From positions 12,975,207-13,039,206 of the forward strand of contig NC_064769.1 of NCBI RefSeq assembly GCF_011397635.1: a stretch of 64,000 nucleotides of DNA. Reading direction: 5' to 3'. Origin of the DNA: Epinephelus fuscoguttatus. Its lineage: Eukaryota; Chordata; Actinopteri; Perciformes; Serranidae. The stretch's first letter is position 1. Each line of letters begins with the position of its first letter. Shown here in pieces: positions 1,746 to 30,900 of this stretch. Below the pieces are notes generated by a model, which made no database searches, was not told the origin of the DNA, and saw nothing but the letters and a program-made list of their open reading frames with translations. A program made the position numbers and the translations under genes.

Positions 1746-3680
1746 TGCGCTCTGTAGCACTTTGAAAGAGATGTCTGTTGGTTTCATTCATTAGAGTTTT
1801 GTGTTTTTCAAATAAGGTCACTCAAATTAAATATTAAATCAGGGTATCCACAGGTATCAGACACTTAACTTTAATGCTTTTTTAAAAAGGTAATTTTTAA
1901 CTGAATGTAAGAGTGATTTTTGGACAAATCTTTCTTACTCAATCTTTGCATATATGTATATATCTGTATATATGTGTTCCTGTGCAGAGTAATATGGTTA
2001 ATAGAGTGAGGTAGGTTAATCTATATTTTGCCAACAAGCATTAAAAAAAAGCCAGTAGTAGGTTCAGTGGTAGGTTCAAAGATATGTAACATCAGAGATG
2101 TGAACTTTCAGACAGAAGAGCTCGACTTATTTTGATAAAGATAAAAGATTGATCAGTTAAATAAGATTAAATGTTTGTGGCAATTAAGACCTCAAATTCA
2201 AATTGGTGACTGTATTAATGACTTTAAAGGCCTAATATTTATAAAACTGAATTTCGACTTTTTAATGATGTGCAGACACCCTTTAGATTTGTGCTTAATA
2301 TTGAATGCTTGACTTTTTGCAGGATTCTGGCTGATCTTAAAAAGCCTTACAAGGCATTAAATTCCTTATCTATAAATAAGGCCTTAATTGGGATTACAAT
2401 GTCTTAAATCAATCTTTCAAAAGTCTTTGAAATGGTAAGACATGGGAAGTAGGACATTATGAATGAATCTTAAATCTTAAAATAATTCTAATCAAAGGTA
2501 AAATGAACACACTTTTTTCGAAGCAAACCAAATACTTTTATGATAAGATAATATGTTCATTGTTTTCTTTGTGTTCCACTCAAAAGTTTTAATATTTTTT
2601 CAGCATTGAAGTAGATCATCCAACTTTTCAACTAGATCAGAAAAGTAATGTTATTTATTACAGTAAATTGACCCTAAAATGTAAAACTGGTCTTAAATAT
2701 CACTCCGAGGGTCTTAAATCTTTTCTTATGACATTTCTGTTTACATGTTTGAAATAAATAAAAATCTAAATCTAATGTGGCTTAAGATGTAGCAAACGTT
2801 TTGGCAAGCGCGTGTACCTACAGAAAACAAAACCAGTGGAGCTGCCACATTTGCACATAACTCGTAATGCAAATGTGATGAAAATATGATCAGTGACATT
2901 AAAGACAGTATTGGCTGATAGAGATCTAACAAGAAATGAACTGCTAGCAAGGGAACACAGGCTATGCTAAGACATTTTGTTCCACAGCGTATTAGAGGTT
3001 CAGATACCAGGAGGTAGGTGAAATGTTGTGGAGCAGTGGGATGGTGATGAAGGGGATTTACAGTCAGGTTTGCATTTAATTTCTACTTAATATACATGCA
3101 AATGCACCAGTGTGACCCTGGTAAGACATTTCAATCAGGACCAAAGTGATGGACTGTCAGATCACAACTGACATCCACAGAGCCATGTCATGTGCATGGC
3201 TAAAAATTTGCAGCATCCTTAGTTTTATATAATCTGCTGTATTTCTGTTAGCAAAGACATTTCACCATCTCACAGTTACATTGTTATGTACAGTACAAAA
3301 ACAAAATCTAATAAATTGTCATAGCATGACCGTTGGCAACACTTATTTTACAGCCTTACAATTAAATCCTCTCTTTTTACAAACATTTTCATCAAGCGAC
3401 ACTGGCACTTGCACGTGTTCAGTCCACTGATCTGAGAAAGACGATATTGTACTAGCAAATTGAGCACCTCTGCTAAAAAAGGGGCAATATCAGCTTACTT
3501 TCAACTAAGAAAAGGCTCATTAGACTGTTTAATTATTTACAGTAAGTCCAGTCAAATGTAGACCTTCCAACAGTCAGTATAAAACAAACATAGCTACTTA
3601 TATAAGTAATTTGTATTACCATGATCTCCTGGAGTAATGTGCCAGCTCTTCCCAACATTATGTTATCTGAGTTCATCAAA
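1746..3680. other. AT-rich intergenic stretch, nothing recognised
   Basis: This lies between the 3' ends of two convergent genes. It is AT-rich with many stop codons in all frames. I see no conserved ORF, RNA gene or clear repeat boundary. Confidence 0.5.
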
Positions 3681-3684
3681 GTCA

Positions 3685-3690
3685 TTTATT
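3685..3690 (-). terminator. poly(A) signal of the tri-MLLE gene
   Basis: TTTATT on the plus strand reads AATAAA on the minus strand, about 47 bases past the TGA at 3739-3737. This makes a very short 3' UTR. Confidence 0.55.
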
Positions 3691-3736: not shown

Positions 3737-5253
3737 TCAAGTAGAGAGAGTTTGATTCTGAGTGTCAAGCGCTGCTTGTGCTTTCTGAACGGCAACTTCC
3801 AGCATCGAGTGGTCACTGAGCAGCTGTTGGAGAGCAGCTGGGTCCATCTCCAGCAGCATACCTGCACACATAGATGAAAGGGTACAAAACCAAAATATCA
3901 TTAGTGCTATAAACATTTAGTCTTTATCCATGAAATGATTAACTTCCAAAGATGCACTGTCATGTCACCTGTAATATCATTTGCATGAAGTGGATCCAGC
4001 TCCTCCACCAGTGAGAAGATCTTCTCTCCAAGCCTCTCTGTGTCATCAGCATCCGACATGTCACTAATGTCTGTCTCCTCCATGTTCTGTCTGAAGAGAA
4101 GCAGCAGGAACATTCATTCAAACAAGTGCTTTAACTGTAATTTCTTAATAAATATTAGTTCTTTTGTAATGTTTTATTTTTTAGATTAAATTACAAGTAA
4201 CAATAATAAAGCACATACTCCTTGAGAGTCTTCAGGGCGAAGTTCACCTGCTCTTCCAGCAGTTTTGGATCTGAAAGAAGGTTTAACACGACCTCTTTGT
4301 GCTGCTCCAGAAGCATTCCTGTTGAAGAACAGCAAATCCTGCTTTGATGCATTACACACTAGTTGCTCGTAATTTTTTTTTGGTGTATACATGATAGTGA
4401 AACTAAGAGTCCAAGCTAGAGCTTCAAAGGCTTTACTTCGGTATATGCTGATGTTGCTTCATGTCTAGGTGGTATTTTGCTGCATTATATCAGGTGTTTG
4501 CTGAGTCACAGGACTGGTTGCTTACCTGTGATTTTCTGCGAGTGGCCTGTGTTGTAAACATCCACCAGGTCAAACAGCTGCTCCCCCAGAGAGTCAGAGG
4601 ACACAGATGCGTCATCCTCGTCCTTACATGTTACTTTGCTGCAAAGAGGTGCAGTGACATGAGAATGCACAGTCCTTCCCAAAAAAAAATACACTGAAAT
4701 TTGGTTGTAAATAACTGATGTTGCATTAATGGGCAAAACCACCCCTGTAAAGACATGTCCTCAGACAATTTGATGGTGTAATAGTGTTTGTTACATTAAA
4801 TATGCCTTTCTGCATCTGAACGCTACCTCAGTCCTCTGCTGGGAACGTTTTAGGCTCAGAGGACTTATGAGAACAAACATTTTAAGACCAGTATGTTCAT
4901 GATGATGGAGAGAAGGAGATCAGGTCTGCTGCTGTACCTGGGATCCTGTGCCAGCTGCAGGGCTCTGAGGGCTTTCTCCACAGCAGCAGTCAGCGTGGCT
5001 TCATCCTGCAGCATCTGACTCAGCACAGGACCTGGCAGCTCCAGCAACATACCTAGGACACACACAGGCTTGGAAACTGTGATTTTATGTCAGTTATTAT
5101 TATGCAAATATGTTTAACAATGTTACAAAACCATCAAAGTGAGTCATAGTAAGTCATCTCACCTGTGAGTTTTCCAGCATTCTCTTTGTGTTTGGGGTAA
5201 ATCAGAATGTACAGTTTCTCACCAAGTGTCTCCAGATCTTCTTCTTCGTCCAT
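3737..5253 (-). CDS. triple-MLLE (PABC) domain protein without RRMs
   Basis: Six coding exons on the minus strand: 5253-5163, 5052-4938, 4638-4526, 4318-4219, 4090-3969 and 3861-3737. They total 666 bases (221 residues plus TGA), all with GT-AG borders and consistent phases. The start is the ATG at 5253, opening MDEEEDLETLGEKL. The protein is three repeats of the MLLE fold of poly(A)-binding protein. Each has an LGE-x-[LI]-[FY]-x-L-[IV] helix and a [LI]TGMLLE signature, at residues 29-35, 105-111 and 179-185. Known MLLE domains (PABPC, UBR5) bind PAM2 peptides of translation and deadenylation factors. The aromatic residue that stacks on the PAM2 Phe (Phe567 in PABPC1) is Tyr15, Phe91 and Phe165. 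The Lys before [LI]TG is kept in units 1 and 2 and is Asp178 in unit 3. Acidic Ser/Asp linkers join the units. No RRM, HECT or other domain is present. Function is inferred: a soluble multivalent PAM2-binding adaptor or competitor. Confidence 0.85.
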
Positions 5254-5878
5254 ATTTGACTTTTCACATTAAATCACTGCTTGCAGGTGCCATGTTACAC
5301 CGCGCTGTAACGTTACAATGAGCCGTTTTACAGAAGATTTTACCTCTGACAACTTTTTAGTCCTCAGCTTCTTCCAATCACATCAACATTCAGACATCCA
5401 CAAAATACTTCATAAAATCTGCGTCATATAATGTTAATTTTTACTAAAAGATTCGTCTTATTTATTCTGTGCTTTCCCCCCGACACAGACTCATATTATA
5501 ATCCAAACTATACCTTCCGTGCTTAATATTAAAGCAGCTGACATCTGGAAATTGAATTTATGACGGCTGTCTGTAAACACGAGGCGCACATTAATGACGT
5601 TGACTTTTACAGAGTGCGCTGAGGACGTGTCCCTCCGCTGAGCTTGTGGAAAACTAGTTCTCAATAATATGCCGTTCAAAAATATGGCATAGCGTCAAAA
5701 TACTAACGACACCACGACTTTAACAATAATTGTGATTTTATGTAAATTTTAAACGTTTTAAAGTGTGTGTTTTATGCTAAATATTGTATGAGCAAGTAGC
5801 CGTATGTGCGCAATGATCTGTGACAGAGGTTCCGTAAAGCGGTTTCCGGTCTCTCCGGTCCTCTTCCTCCGCTAAAAG
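5254..5878. promoter_or_regulatory. divergent promoter region between tri-MLLE gene and rpl28
   Basis: About 600 bases separate the minus-strand ATG at 5253 from the start of rpl28. The rpl28 side carries a pyrimidine tract (CTCTTCCTCC, 5861-5870) just before a GT donor at 5879. This fits a 5'TOP transcription start and a short untranslated first exon ending at 5878. No TATA box is obvious on either side. The shared-promoter idea is inference. Confidence 0.5.
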
Positions 5879-6414
5879 GTAACGTGGTCGCCTCGGCAGC
5901 TATAAGCCGCTAACTAAAGTGTATTTATTATGTCTCCCTATTAGTATTAAGCGTCAGAAAGTCAGATATTATTGTTGTGTTTATTGTTAAAGACCCACTG
6001 TGACGGTAAATGTCCAAGTATAGTGTAAAAATGGAAAGATACATTTGTGAGCACGTCGTCCGGGTTAGGCCTCATCGTGCTCCTTCAGTCCATTGAGCTG
6101 AGCTATGGAGCTAACTTTAGCAAACTGTTTCAGTCTAACAGCAGCGCAGTGTTTTCTTGGGATAAGACGTAAAATATATGTTTTTCGTGTTACATTATTT
6201 TGACATTGGCCATTAAACCAAATAGATAATCTAAAGTTGTGAAAGCAAGTGGTCACGTTGAGCTAAAGTTAGTTGCTAAGAAAATAGTAGCCGACAGAAA
6301 TGACGCCTGTCAGTTGCAAGCAGTGTCTGTATGTATTGCCGCTTTTAATGTTGCTTTGACTTGGATTTGTGAATTTATTCAGTAACACTTTGTCTCGTTT
6401 TGTCCAGGTGCATC

Positions 6415-9475: not shown

Positions 9476-11703
9476 ATGAGGGGACTAAGGCCAGTGCTTC
9501 TGTGCATGCCCTTGGCTCTGCTGGTCTTGCAAGGTCGGAGCTTTGAGCTGCAGGATACCATTCATGCACTGATAGAGGAGAATATTCACCTTCATGACCG
9601 GCTGGAGAACCTCACCCAAGCCCTCAGGGAACTCAAACGGATGCTGTGGCATCACTCGAATGGTACTGAGTTTTCTTTACATGTTTTTTCTTTCAATGTT
9701 TGTCCTTCATATTTTTGTCTCTTATTCTGATTATTGCATTGCATTGTCATTGCACACTGGTACACACATGGCATGAGAATGTGCAAATAAAACCTTTAAA
9801 TTAAACTGAAAAACAGCACTTTATTTTCTGGTTCTGCAGAATTTATTCTGAAGACACAGGATCTGTAATATATGCTCTCTAGTGCATCGTGGGATCACTA
9901 TTGGAATGCATATTAGTTTTATGAAATGTTATGTTTTTTCAGTCCCCAAGGTCAAAACAGCTGCCTGCTTTCCTTTCATTTCCCTTACTCTCATTTCCTG
10001 TTTGTGTCCTGTCTGTTTCTCTTAATCCTCTCCATGCTGTCTTTATTCATTTATGTTCTCATGTAGCTTTCTCATTCTAGTTATTTGACCTCACCCGGAG
10101 GACTAATAATTTGTTCATGATTTTTGTGTTATGATTAATCCAGACCCAGATCACCATGAACACCACGGACATCACAATGAGGATATCCAGCATCTGTGGG
10201 ACGAATGGTCACAACACGGTGTGTATCATGTCACGCTTGTCTCTTCAGCTGACCAAAACATTTCAAAGCTCCAAACAGATTTACTGTATCGAGCGTGCAA
10301 GTTGTGTTAGAGCCCATACCATTAGTTGGTATCGATTTCAGGGCTCATGCAGGCTGCAGATAGGCTCACAGGTCACGTAGCACCAGGGGGATAATGAAAT
10401 GTTAATCAACTCTGCCACAAATGAGCCTGCTAGCAGCACACAAATGATAGATTAAAGGGACAGTTCATCTCAATATGAAAAATACATATTTTTCCTCTTA
10501 CCTGTAGTGCTGTTTATCAAGCCTGTCAGGCCATATTGTGCGTTTAGCTCCTTTAAAGGGACAGTTCACCTCAAAATAAAAAATACACATTTTTTCCTCT
10601 TACCTGTACTGCTACTTATGAATCTAAATTGTTCTTGTGTGAGTTGCAGAGTGTTGGAGATATCGGCTGTACAGATGTCTGCCTTCTCTCCAATATAATG
10701 GAACTAGATGGCACTCAGCTTGTGATGCTCAAAGCGATAAAAAATACATTTGAAAAAAGCAAACAGGAATGTCTCTTTCCAGAAATCATGACCCGGTTAC
10801 TCAAGATAATCCACAGACTTTGCTGTGAGCAGTTTCATGTAGGAACTATTTTATTCTACCAAACTACACCCACCAATCGTATTTCCGAGCTGAAGGAAGA
10901 GGGCATCTACTCATGGAGGAGAAGCTCAGGCTCTTGACAGGGTGAGATGTAAACAGTGGTGTCCTGAGCTGTGACATTAGCTAGCACAGTGATGCTAGAT
11001 GCTAGGTGAGCTAGTCGACACAGTGACTGGCCTTTTTCACAGCAGAAAAGCACAGGTGTATTCCATTTAGGGCCGGACCTGGTATCGTGCATGTAGGCTC
11101 ACTGAAATAGCTTACTGGCACACTTAATGGAATTGAGCCATTGCTAATGTTATCAGTTTCACCTGTGATTTTCCTGCTGTGACAAGACAAAATGTCTGCT
11201 GTGAAAAAGGTCGGCAGAAAAAAATAGTTCCTACATGAAACTGCTCACAACAAGGTCTGTGGGTTATCTTGAGTAACCAGGTCATGATTTCTGGAAAGAC
11301 TTGAGTTTTTCAAATGTATTTTTTGGCGCTTTGAGCACCACAAGCAGAGTGCCATCTAGTTCCATTATATTAGATAAAAGGTAGACATCTCTACAGCTGA
11401 TATCTCCAACACTCAGCAACTCACACAAGAACAATTTAGATTCATAAGTAGCAGCACAGGTAAGAGAAAAAATGTGTATTTTTTATTTTGGGTTGAACTG
11501 TCCCTTTAAAGGAGCTAAATGCATGATATGGCCTGATTATATTTCTCCTCCTGGCAGGCATCAGTGCAGAAACCCACCTTCTGTTGGAGCATGCTTTTTG
11601 TGGACATGACCTACACGACTCAGCTGTTCCCCTCCATGAAGAAACAACCCTCCTGCTGCTGACGTTATCCTGCCTCACTCTGCTGTTGATGAGATACTTC
11701 TAG
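9476..11703 (+). CDS. unrecognised His-rich coiled-coil protein with hydrophobic ends
   Basis: Three exons, 9476-9662, 10144-10218 and 11558-11703, join in phase to 408 bases (135 residues). The ATG at 9476 begins MRGLRPVLLCMPLALLVLQG, a good signal peptide or signal anchor. Residues 25-57 form a likely coiled coil (Leu/Ile heptads through IHALIEEN and LENLTQAL). It carries one N-glycosylation site, Asn45. Residues 63-73 are a His cluster (DPDHHEHHGHH), and more His follow to 114, suggesting metal binding. The C-terminus, residues 118-132, is a run rich in Leu and Thr followed by only Arg-Tyr-Phe. That fits a tail anchor or a GPI-addition signal. I do not recognise the family. The layout (N-terminal hydrophobic stretch, glycosylated coiled coil, C-terminal hydrophobic stretch) is that of tetherin-like proteins, but I see no sequence match and make no such call. 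Support for the model is open frames with clean GT-AG sites in matching phase. Confidence 0.6.
10452..10522 (+). repeat. partial terminal copy of the foldback element
   Basis: Starts TTAAAGGGACAGTTCATC and matches the first ~70 bases of the full foldback element that begins 100 bases later at 10552, in the same direction. It looks like a duplicated or older end of the same family. Confidence 0.55.
10525..11535 (+). mobile_element. long foldback (inverted-repeat) non-autonomous DNA element, copy A
   Basis: Core 10552-11510 starts TTTAAAGGGACAGTTCA and ends TGAACTGTCCCTTTAAA. The two arms remain complementary for about 300 bases (for example TCCACAGACTTTGCTG on the left against the reverse of CAACAAGGTCTGTGGGTT on the right). 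The complementarity also extends outside the core into CAGGCCATAT-type flanks at 10527 and 11535. No transposase frame is present. The right end lies about 22 bases before the exon 3 acceptor of the coiled-coil gene. Related copies are at 26004, 28102 and 31969; copies A and D have the same centre orientation, B and C the reverse. Confidence 0.75.
11031..11210. mobile_element. short MITE nested in foldback copy A
   Basis: Perfect 15-bp terminal inverted repeats, CCTTTTTCACAGCAG at the left and CTGCTGTGAAAAAGG at the right, enclose 180 bases with no ORF. It sits in the central part of foldback copy A, so it inserted later or was captured. A related diverged fragment (ACCTTTTTTCACAGCAGAC) is at about 12317. 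Confidence 0.65.
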
Positions 11704-27900: not shown

Positions 27901-30900
27901 TCGTAGCAAAGATTGGATCACCCCTTGTGCCTGGTTGACATAGAGTCCAGGGGGAAAACATTTGGTTATCTTTATTCCCCTGTTTCCAGCAGCAATCGGC
28001 TGCTATCTGTAGACTGATATTTAATCGACAGATCTTCTCAGTCAGAAATCAAATAAATGTTAAACTATTTAAGAGAAAAAATAATATAAAATCTGGAATT
28101 CTTAAAGGGATAGTTCACCCCAAAATCAAAATACATATTTTTCCTCTTACCTGTAGTGCTATTTATCAGCGTAGATTGTTTTGGTGTGAGTTGCCGAGTC
28201 TTGGAGATATCAGCCATAGAGATGTCTGCCTTCTCTTTAATATAATGGAACTAGACATCACTCAGCTTGTGGTGCTCAAAGCGCCAAAAAACAATACATT
28301 TGCAAAACTCAACAGTAAAGTGTCTTTCCATAAATCATGACCCGTTTACTCAAGAAAATTCACACTCCATATTGTAAGCAGTCTCATGTAGGAAGTATTT
28401 TCTTTCGACCGAACCACACCCACCAACCATATTACTGCACTGGAGGAAGCATACATTTACTGCTAGCTCACACCTAGCACCACTGAGCTAGCTAACGTTA
28501 CAGCTCAAATGAGGTGGACGCCAATGTTTACATCTCACGCTGTCATAAGCACAAGCCTCTTGTCTGTGAGTAGATGCACACTTCCTTCTGAGCTACGATA
28601 CAATTGGTAGGTGTAGTTTGGTAGAAAGAAAATAGTTCCTGCATGAAACTGCTCACAACAAGGTCTGTGGATAATCTTAAGTAATGTGGTCATGATGACT
28701 GGAAAGAGACATTGCTGATGAGTTTTTCAAATGTACTTTTTTGGTGCTTTGAGCACCACAAGCTGAGTGCCATCTAGTTGTATTATATTTGAGAGAAGGC
28801 AGACATCTGTACGGCTGATATCTCCAACACTTGGCAACTCACACCAAAACAATCTACACTGATAAATAGTGCTACACGTAAGACAAAAAAAAATGTATTT
28901 TTGGGTGAACTGTTCCTTTAAAATGGAATGTTAAACCCGAGTTCAGTGTAGTTAAGTTTATATTTGTGTAATTGAATAACAATCCAAACCAATAAATGTG
29001 CCAAAAACTTTTGGCTAATAATGAAGAGGCCTTTGTTCTTGCACAGAGAACCAGAGGGAGGATGGGGGGGGGGGGTGGGGTGGTGGGGGGGTCTAACAGA
29101 CGCAGTGACAAGATAAAACAAGCAACCTCGTAAATTACAGCATGATGACAGATACAGCTGTTTACATCACACATTCTTTTATCCTACGATTTACGCACGG
29201 ATTACTACAAGTTCATAATATTATAGCTATACAGATAAGCATGTTATGTGAACTGTGTGGTAAACTATAAAACATCCAGGTAAAGGGCAAGCTCTTCTGA
29301 CATTATATACACTTACCCGCACATGGAAAAACATGCCTCTCCCTGCCCACGCAGCCCCCCATCCCTGTTTCCTGGCAGCACACCCAACATCTCAGCCACC
29401 TCATTTGACTGCTATGTAAACTACATGTGCCTTACGTGATTTCACAGGTCACACTTACCTCAAACCTCACACGTAACAGGAAAATTCAAGTATTGCACCA
29501 TAAATCTGAATGAATCACTGCCTCAACAATTTACATGTAAAACGTTTTTCCTCACGTGACTCAATCTGTCTCTGAACCCTCGAGTGCAACAATGACACAG
29601 CATCTCATTCAGAATTTGTAAGGCTTGGCAGTACATAAAAAAAAAAAACCAAATGACAGGAAAAAGGTGTTGAAACTTTTTGTTGACGTGTATGAGAGCT
29701 GATACAGTTGGTCTGAGGGCAGGATGGTATAATGTGCCAAGCTTCCTGCCTGGCCTGTGGGGGCTACATGTTTGGCATAGGGCCAACAGGTCAGGCAGGA
29801 AAAGTCTGTCTGGGGAGAAGTACATGCATCCATCCAGGGTCATGAGTCTGTCAGTGCTGAGTCTTGAAACCGTATCTTTCAGGGAACTAGGAGAGCAAAT
29901 AATCCTTTCGTTTGATGTTAAACAAGTTAAAGGCATAGTTCAGATTTTTTGAAGTGTAGTTACCCGTAGTGTATTACATACAGCAGATCTCAGCTGGCAT
30001 GAAAAGGAGTCAGAAAAAAGAAGCTAAACCATGTACTGCTGTGGAGTAGTCAGTAACAAAACACATTTTTGCCACCTGACAAAGTCCTACAAAATCAGTA
30101 TGAGATTAAGTGTATGCTATACTGAGAATATTTTCACTGCTTTACCTTGCCTTCAGACAGCAATTTCCAACGAGGATCTGAAGCCATTATATCGTTACCT
30201 TCAAAGCCAGACTCCATTAGGAAAAACACTGATTTAACATTGCAGAACACAGGAGCTGCTGGTCTAAAGCTGCCTTGAACAGTTAGTTTGTTTGTGTTAC
30301 TGTATGACTTTGGCATTTAAAAGTGTTCACTCAGTTTCCCCAAAGTCACACAATAACAGAAACTAAATAACTGACTGAGGCAGTGGTAACCAGTAGCACA
30401 TATGCTCAGCAAGCTAAAATTACTGTTTTTGTCAATGGGATCTGGTAGCACAGATGGGGGACTGGCGCAATGAATAGCTTGCCAATTGAAACTGTCTGTC
30501 TGACGGCAAGGTAAAGCAGAACAAATACTTCCAATATAGCAAACACTTAAACTGTTTGCGATTTTTTTTAAGGGGCTAAAATACATTTTGTTGCGAACCC
30601 CTCCACAGCAGTAGTTTTGTGTCAGTACTCCTGCTGCTTCTCCAAACTGGGGGCATGCAGACAGAAATATATTATATGTTATATATTGACTATGGATAAG
30701 TGACTCATACAACCCCACTTCAAAAAATCCGAACTATCCCTTTAATATGAATATGAAAAATCCACAATTAGGATGCTACCTTTTCCACATTGTTATTAAT
30801 TTGAGAAGGAACAAAAAGAAAAATAACGTGCAACATATTTTTGTCATATTATTTTTCTTGGCAGTGACTCTTCAGTTGATGGATTATATTACTGTACCAG

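Follow-up and report, generated by a model that had tools for sequence, protein, structure and literature searches.

A gene of the fish Epinephelus fuscoguttatus predicted to encode a stand-alone protein of three MLLE domains

Besides human PABPC1, the only described MLLE proteins named in the accessible part of PMC9249222 are UBR5 and those of the Rrm4 type, and the excerpt available of PMC9753129 refers to EDD (UBR5) as the only other MLLE protein besides PABPC1. Pfam also has a plant family, PABC_AtC3H46. According to the accessible text of PMC2854688, the pocket for the phenylalanine of the PAM2 motif is lined by Gly563, Glu564, Phe567, Thr582 and Leu586, and Gln560 is situated at this pocket (PMC2854688, PMC7356810; both in part). 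In the section of PMC9249222 at hand, MLLE3 of Rrm4 keeps a gatekeeper glycine and binds PAM2L. MLLE1 and MLLE2 carry Ser and Arg at the gatekeeper site, and neither PAM2 nor PAM2L is bound by them (PMC9249222, same section). No paper on a stand-alone multi-MLLE protein of vertebrates was found among the openly accessible papers listed as matches, as judged by titles and the beginnings of abstracts. Here, we describe a gene for such a protein (tri-MLLE gene) in a stretch of 64,000 nucleotides of E. fuscoguttatus DNA (contig NC_064769.1, 12,975,207 to 13,039,206), referred to as the window. It is quite possible that this gene has been annotated automatically in fish genomes.

The tri-MLLE gene is located on the minus strand from 5253 to 3737, and its six exons (Table 1) encode 221 amino acids plus a stop codon in a CDS of 666 nt without internal stops. 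The five introns that are removed by splicing of these exons are all of the GT...AG type and have the phases 1, 2, 1, 2 and 1. The ATG lies in a good start context, and the in-frame TAA on its 5' side argues for a complete N-terminus, provided that there is no upstream coding exon. As computed from the 221 residues, the protein is acidic, with a mass of 24 kDa, a pI of 4.21 and a charge of about -29. By its look, the gene appears to be real and intact.

Table 1. Positions of the tri-MLLE gene parts and adjacent signals in the window (a slash within a motif marks the exon end)
Feature	Position	Strand	Remarks	Basis
Exon 1 (coding part)	5163..5253	-	ATG and MLLE unit 1 (first half); 3' end within Gly codon of LTG/MLLE (phase 1)	Gene model, unit-1 Pfam match
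Exon 2	4938..5052	-	Second half of MLLE unit 1; phase-2 end	Gene model, Pfam
Exon 3	4526..4638	-	Acidic linker, then MLLE unit 2 (first half); 3' end within ITG/MLLE (phase 1)	Gene model, Pfam
Exon 4	4219..4318	-	Second half of MLLE unit 2; phase-2 end	Gene model, Pfam
Exon 5	3969..4090	-	Acidic linker, then MLLE unit 3 (first half); 3' end within ITG/MLLE (phase 1)	Gene model, Pfam
Exon 6	3737..3861	-	MLLE unit 3 (second half), followed by a short tail and the stop codon	Gene model, Pfam
AATAAA polyadenylation signal	3685..3690	-	46 bases from stop codon	Direct reading of the sequence
In-frame TAA	5269..5271	-	Sixth codon 5' of ATG	Stop-to-stop frame 5134-5268, opening with CEKSN before Met
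CpG-undepleted stretch	5401..6200		Observed/expected 0.99-1.36 at a GC content of only 35-45%; between tri-MLLE gene and rpl28	

The domain content of the encoded protein was determined with Pfam. The full protein gave three matches to the MLLE family PF00658 (E 1.6e-47, 159.8 bits), and each unit queried alone passed the curated cut-off of 27 bits as well, so that all four queries scored above it. A preliminary description of this DNA had claimed a complete 221-residue gene with three MLLE copies and without RRM, HECT or any other domain. This claim is upheld by the splicing model and by Pfam, and the search with the Pfam MLLE profile that it had proposed as a check returned its three matches at 61.0, 54.2 and 64.2 bits for units 1, 2 and 3. 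No other domain, such as RRM or HECT, exceeded its cut-off in the 221 residues; PABC_AtC3H46 (E 0.0057) and PMT2_N (E 0.41) stayed below their own cut-offs. The ten flanking minus-strand ORFs scanned, five of which lie upstream of the ATG, contained no Pfam match. The motif AGGNATGYTNYTNGAR, which was composed after the gene had been seen, occurs three times in the window against an expected 0.04, a number that was reached in none of 100 shuffles. When all six frames of the window were scanned with an MLLE HMM, the best six hits were the six exons (34-54 bits) and the next hit scored 8.0 bits, with a maximum of 11.2 bits on ten mononucleotide shuffles; this check is partly circular because three of the eight training rows are the tri-MLLE units themselves. 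A chance motif as an explanation is ruled out by the scores of the full Pfam profile.

Beyond the genome of origin, relatives were found neither with the protein query in 22 viral stretches nor with the alignment query in 33 stretches of viral contigs. Among contigs of bacterial and archaeal genomes, two of 30 stretches (L001 and L002) passed tblastn. The octamer KLTGMLLE is also present in L002 (6001-6045) within a bacterial ORF, which we take to resemble biotin-protein ligase. The octamer can thus turn up by chance and by itself is no proof of an MLLE domain; this proof comes from the full profile. In L001, an MLLE domain of plant or algal look is situated at 3518-3667, at the extreme end of a contig assigned to a gammaproteobacterial bin, and we read it as a plant or algal PABP that got there via a chimeric contig or contamination.

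To the left of the tri-MLLE gene lies a plus-strand gene of the SEC16 type, for which TPR_Sec16 scored above its cut-off in two of the six L008 ORFs scanned; judging from adjacency, the frame ending at window position 356 would be the end of this gene. On the right, rpl28 follows on the plus strand, with Ribosomal_L28e matched by one of two exons scanned. Both genes are arranged head to head, rpl28 being close upstream of the tri-MLLE gene, and the CpG-undepleted stretch between them is a candidate for a shared promoter region. Farther along the window, there are a phosducin gene, a sialyltransferase and two frames that match haem peroxidase with scores short of the Pfam cut-off and presumably resemble PTGS2. 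Three stop-to-stop frames at 10557-10934 (+), 27939-28337 (+) and 28875-29183 (-) have related stretches in common, for example NIMELD.TQLV..LKA in the former two and.VHPKI in the latter two, and look like copies of interspersed repeats.

The genome of E. fuscoguttatus (1.047 Gb in 26 contigs) was searched for further MLLE loci. PF00658 detected at least five places, all five above the cut-off, which we take to be four PABPC-type loci and one UBR5-type locus; the count is a lower bound since the split exons of the window gene itself are missing from these results, and the naming is based on sequence likeness to reference chains. With the 221-residue protein as query and E values up to 1, ten places were obtained among the best candidates scored, namely its own six exons and the four PABPC-type loci at E 0.07-0.17. 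Neither search revealed a second tri-MLLE gene among the best candidates scored in this genome. Near the PABPC-type locus on C17, a long plus-strand frame (L009, around 2300; IGDSITRDIRF...VVHVGCNN) has the look of a retroelement protein.

The intron plan separates the tri-MLLE gene from these loci. In each of the three units, a phase-1 intron splits the Gly codon of TG/MLLE, and the phase-2 introns are placed between the units. At the PABPC-type loci, the MLLE exon opens within the Gly codon of L/GERL, with the acceptor present in all four and the upstream donor in L009 and L010, and closes at SLRSK/V or SLHSK/V, with the donor again in all four and the next exon in L009 and L010. The break of the UBR5-type locus of the same genome is at QP/AFASKITG. 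Inside the domain, no intron position is common to the tri-MLLE gene and any of the four PABPC-type loci or the one UBR5-type locus: TG/MLLE is absent from the PABPC-type loci, and the combination of L/GERL and SLRSK/V is absent from the tri-MLLE gene. The differing positions rule out that the gene is a recent copy of either PABPC or UBR5 exons. As the same intron plan is repeated in every unit, we infer that the array has arisen via tandem duplication of a single two-exon MLLE ancestor. In the tree, the three units came out as a single clade in 30% of the 200 bootstrap replicates and none of nine inner branches was starred, the bootstrap being unsettled with this short alignment. Units 1 and 3 paired at 84/93 with unit 2 outside, and long branches were obtained for units 2 and 3; a single clade for the three units was not rejected by the AU test (p 0.285). 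Pairwise identity among the units is 37-42%, and with human PABPC1 it is 38-42% across 52 positions of this protein, so the array is old or fast-evolving or both. For comparison, the human PABPC1 domain shares 54% identity with the PABP domain of T. cruzi, 54% with that of wheat and 42% with that of Leishmania. Between the units, dN (0.64-0.83) is lower than dS (1.36-3.63), which is compatible with constraint, a signal that is weak because dS is near saturation.

For the comparison of the PAM2 groove, the contact residues of PABPC1 were taken from the accessible part of PMC2854688, with human PABPC1 as the reference. Gly563, Glu564, Thr582, Gly583, Met584, Leu585, Leu586, Glu587, Ala610 and Leu614 are unchanged in all three units. 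Residue 567 is Tyr, Phe and Phe in units 1, 2 and 3, and each unit has the side chains that line the Phe pocket, with Tyr in place of Phe567 in unit 1; the gatekeeper glycine of this pocket is present in every unit. Other positions differ. Residue 560, Gln in PABPC1, is Glu, Asp and Glu in units 1 to 3, and residue 588, Ile in PABPC1, is Leu, Gln and Met. At position 579, the carbonyl of which accepts a hydrogen bond from the PAM2 phenylalanine, Gly, Gln and Asn are found, i.e. Gly in one unit only, and at position 580 Lys, Lys and Asp, Lys580 being altered in one unit. Lys606, Glu609, Val613 and His617, contacts of the N-terminal half of PAM2, are altered in all three units. Judged from these residues, the side-chain pocket for phenylalanine is largely intact in the three units and the side of the groove that faces the PAM2 N-terminus is diverged in all of them. 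Given the changes at 606, 609, 613, 617, 560, 579 and 580, binding to the classical PAM2 factors PAIP, TOB, GW182 and eRF3 is not to be assumed. If the gatekeeper rule of Rrm4 is applied, the glycine in each unit leads one to expect that all three are competent, probably each with a preference of its own. Electrostatic repulsion of acidic PAM2 residues is conceivable at a charge of -29.

How the protein might act can be outlined from these features. Each unit would take up a peptide in its conserved phenylalanine pocket, with an altered preference for the remaining motif; having no RNA contact of its own, the protein would act off the poly(A) tail, and as a trivalent scaffold or sink for PAM2 motifs it could gather PAM2-bearing regulators or compete with PABPC for them. 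We give an even chance to this reading of the gene product as an acidic protein that binds PAM2-like peptides at three sites, lacks an RNA-binding domain and serves as scaffold or competitor of PABPC. The preliminary description had proposed a multivalent PAM2 binder, which agrees with three predicted sites of the PAM2 type; the classical partners it had named are the part that cannot be taken for granted, given the altered N-terminal side. The strongest alternative, possible though clearly less probable than an even chance, is a real tri-MLLE protein that recognizes another short motif in place of the PAM2 factors of the PABPC network, for example the kind of PAM2-like motif that a membrane-trafficking protein carries in the Rrm4-Upa1 pair, and that would be a platform for docking with no link to poly(A). 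Such a shifted specificity would fit with the changes relative to human PABPC1 (560, 588, 606, 609, 613 and 617 in all three units, 579 in two and 580 in one), with the identity of 37-42% among the units and with the C-terminal half of Rrm4, which bound PAM2L but not PAM2 (PMC9249222, in the part available). However, Gly563, Glu564, Thr582 and Leu586 in every unit, together with an aromatic residue at 567, are what continued binding of a PAM2-type phenylalanine would lead one to expect.

Two further explanations question the gene itself. It could be a decaying or scarcely expressed, functionless relic of a PABPC-like gene, which could account for units that resemble human PABPC1 less than the PABP domains of T. 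cruzi and wheat do and about as much as that of Leishmania; we consider this improbable in view of 666 nt that are open over six exons, five canonical introns, the start context, the AATAAA signal and the lack of any lesion, of a gatekeeper glycine that has been retained three times and of intron positions unlike those of PABPC. It is very unlikely that we are dealing with the 3' portion of a larger gene whose coding sequence continues upstream, for instance into RRM exons, as in PABP or an Rrm4-like protein, given the in-frame stop shortly before a well-placed ATG, the divergent rpl28 directly upstream and the lack of Pfam matches in the five upstream minus-strand ORFs scanned. The preliminary description had itself pointed to an upstream RRM exon as the finding that would undo its interpretation; on the same grounds, such an exon is an unlikely possibility.

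An extended version of the scaffold or competitor reading, which we regard as rather doubtful, is that the protein represents a third class of vertebrate MLLE proteins: a soluble scaffold or sink with three sites for PAM2 and no RNA-binding domain, which would set what share of the PAM2 regulators (deadenylation, termination and silencing factors) is free for PABPC at the poly(A) tail. PAIP2 occupies PABPC through a PAM2 motif, and by analogy a tri-MLLE sink or scaffold would in effect be its mirror image. If true, a vertebrate protein with three MLLE domains predicted to be PAM2-competent and without RNA-binding domain would split the two roles of PABPC, the gathering of PAM2 factors and the occupancy of poly(A). 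Provided that a laboratory fish has an orthologue, the removal of one gene would be enough to probe the competition for PAM2 factors. To call the locus an undescribed system, as had been proposed, is too strong, and from its domain content we regard the tri-MLLE gene as a case of a known binding module in a new domain arrangement.

As to the known MLLE proteins, the tri-MLLE protein shares with PABPC1 and PABPC4, which have a C-terminal MLLE (PABC) domain, the Pfam family, the gatekeeper glycine, most side chains of the Phe pocket and, relative to human PABPC1, an identity of 38-42%. In contrast to PABPC, it has three MLLE copies instead of one and lacks the four N-terminal RRMs, of which Pfam found none in the 221 residues or in the ten flanking ORFs, five of them upstream; its introns in TG/MLLE differ from L/GERL and SLRSK/V of the PABPC-type loci, and the alpha-5 side of the groove is altered in its units. 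With the E3 ligase UBR5/EDD/HYD it has in common an MLLE domain outside PABP, and the top match of unit 3 among solved structures is marginally UBR5 (33.9 bits versus 33.4 and 33.1 for two PABPs), whereas HECT or other domains are absent and the UBR5-type intron is located at QP/AFASKITG. Fungal Rrm4 likewise combines three MLLE domains in one protein, but it contains RRMs, none of which occur in the 221 residues, and keeps the gatekeeper glycine only in its MLLE3 (PMC9249222, in the part available), as opposed to all three tri-MLLE units. The earlier view of a complete, stand-alone three-MLLE gene, separate from both PABPC and UBR5 and dissimilar to Rrm4, is supported.
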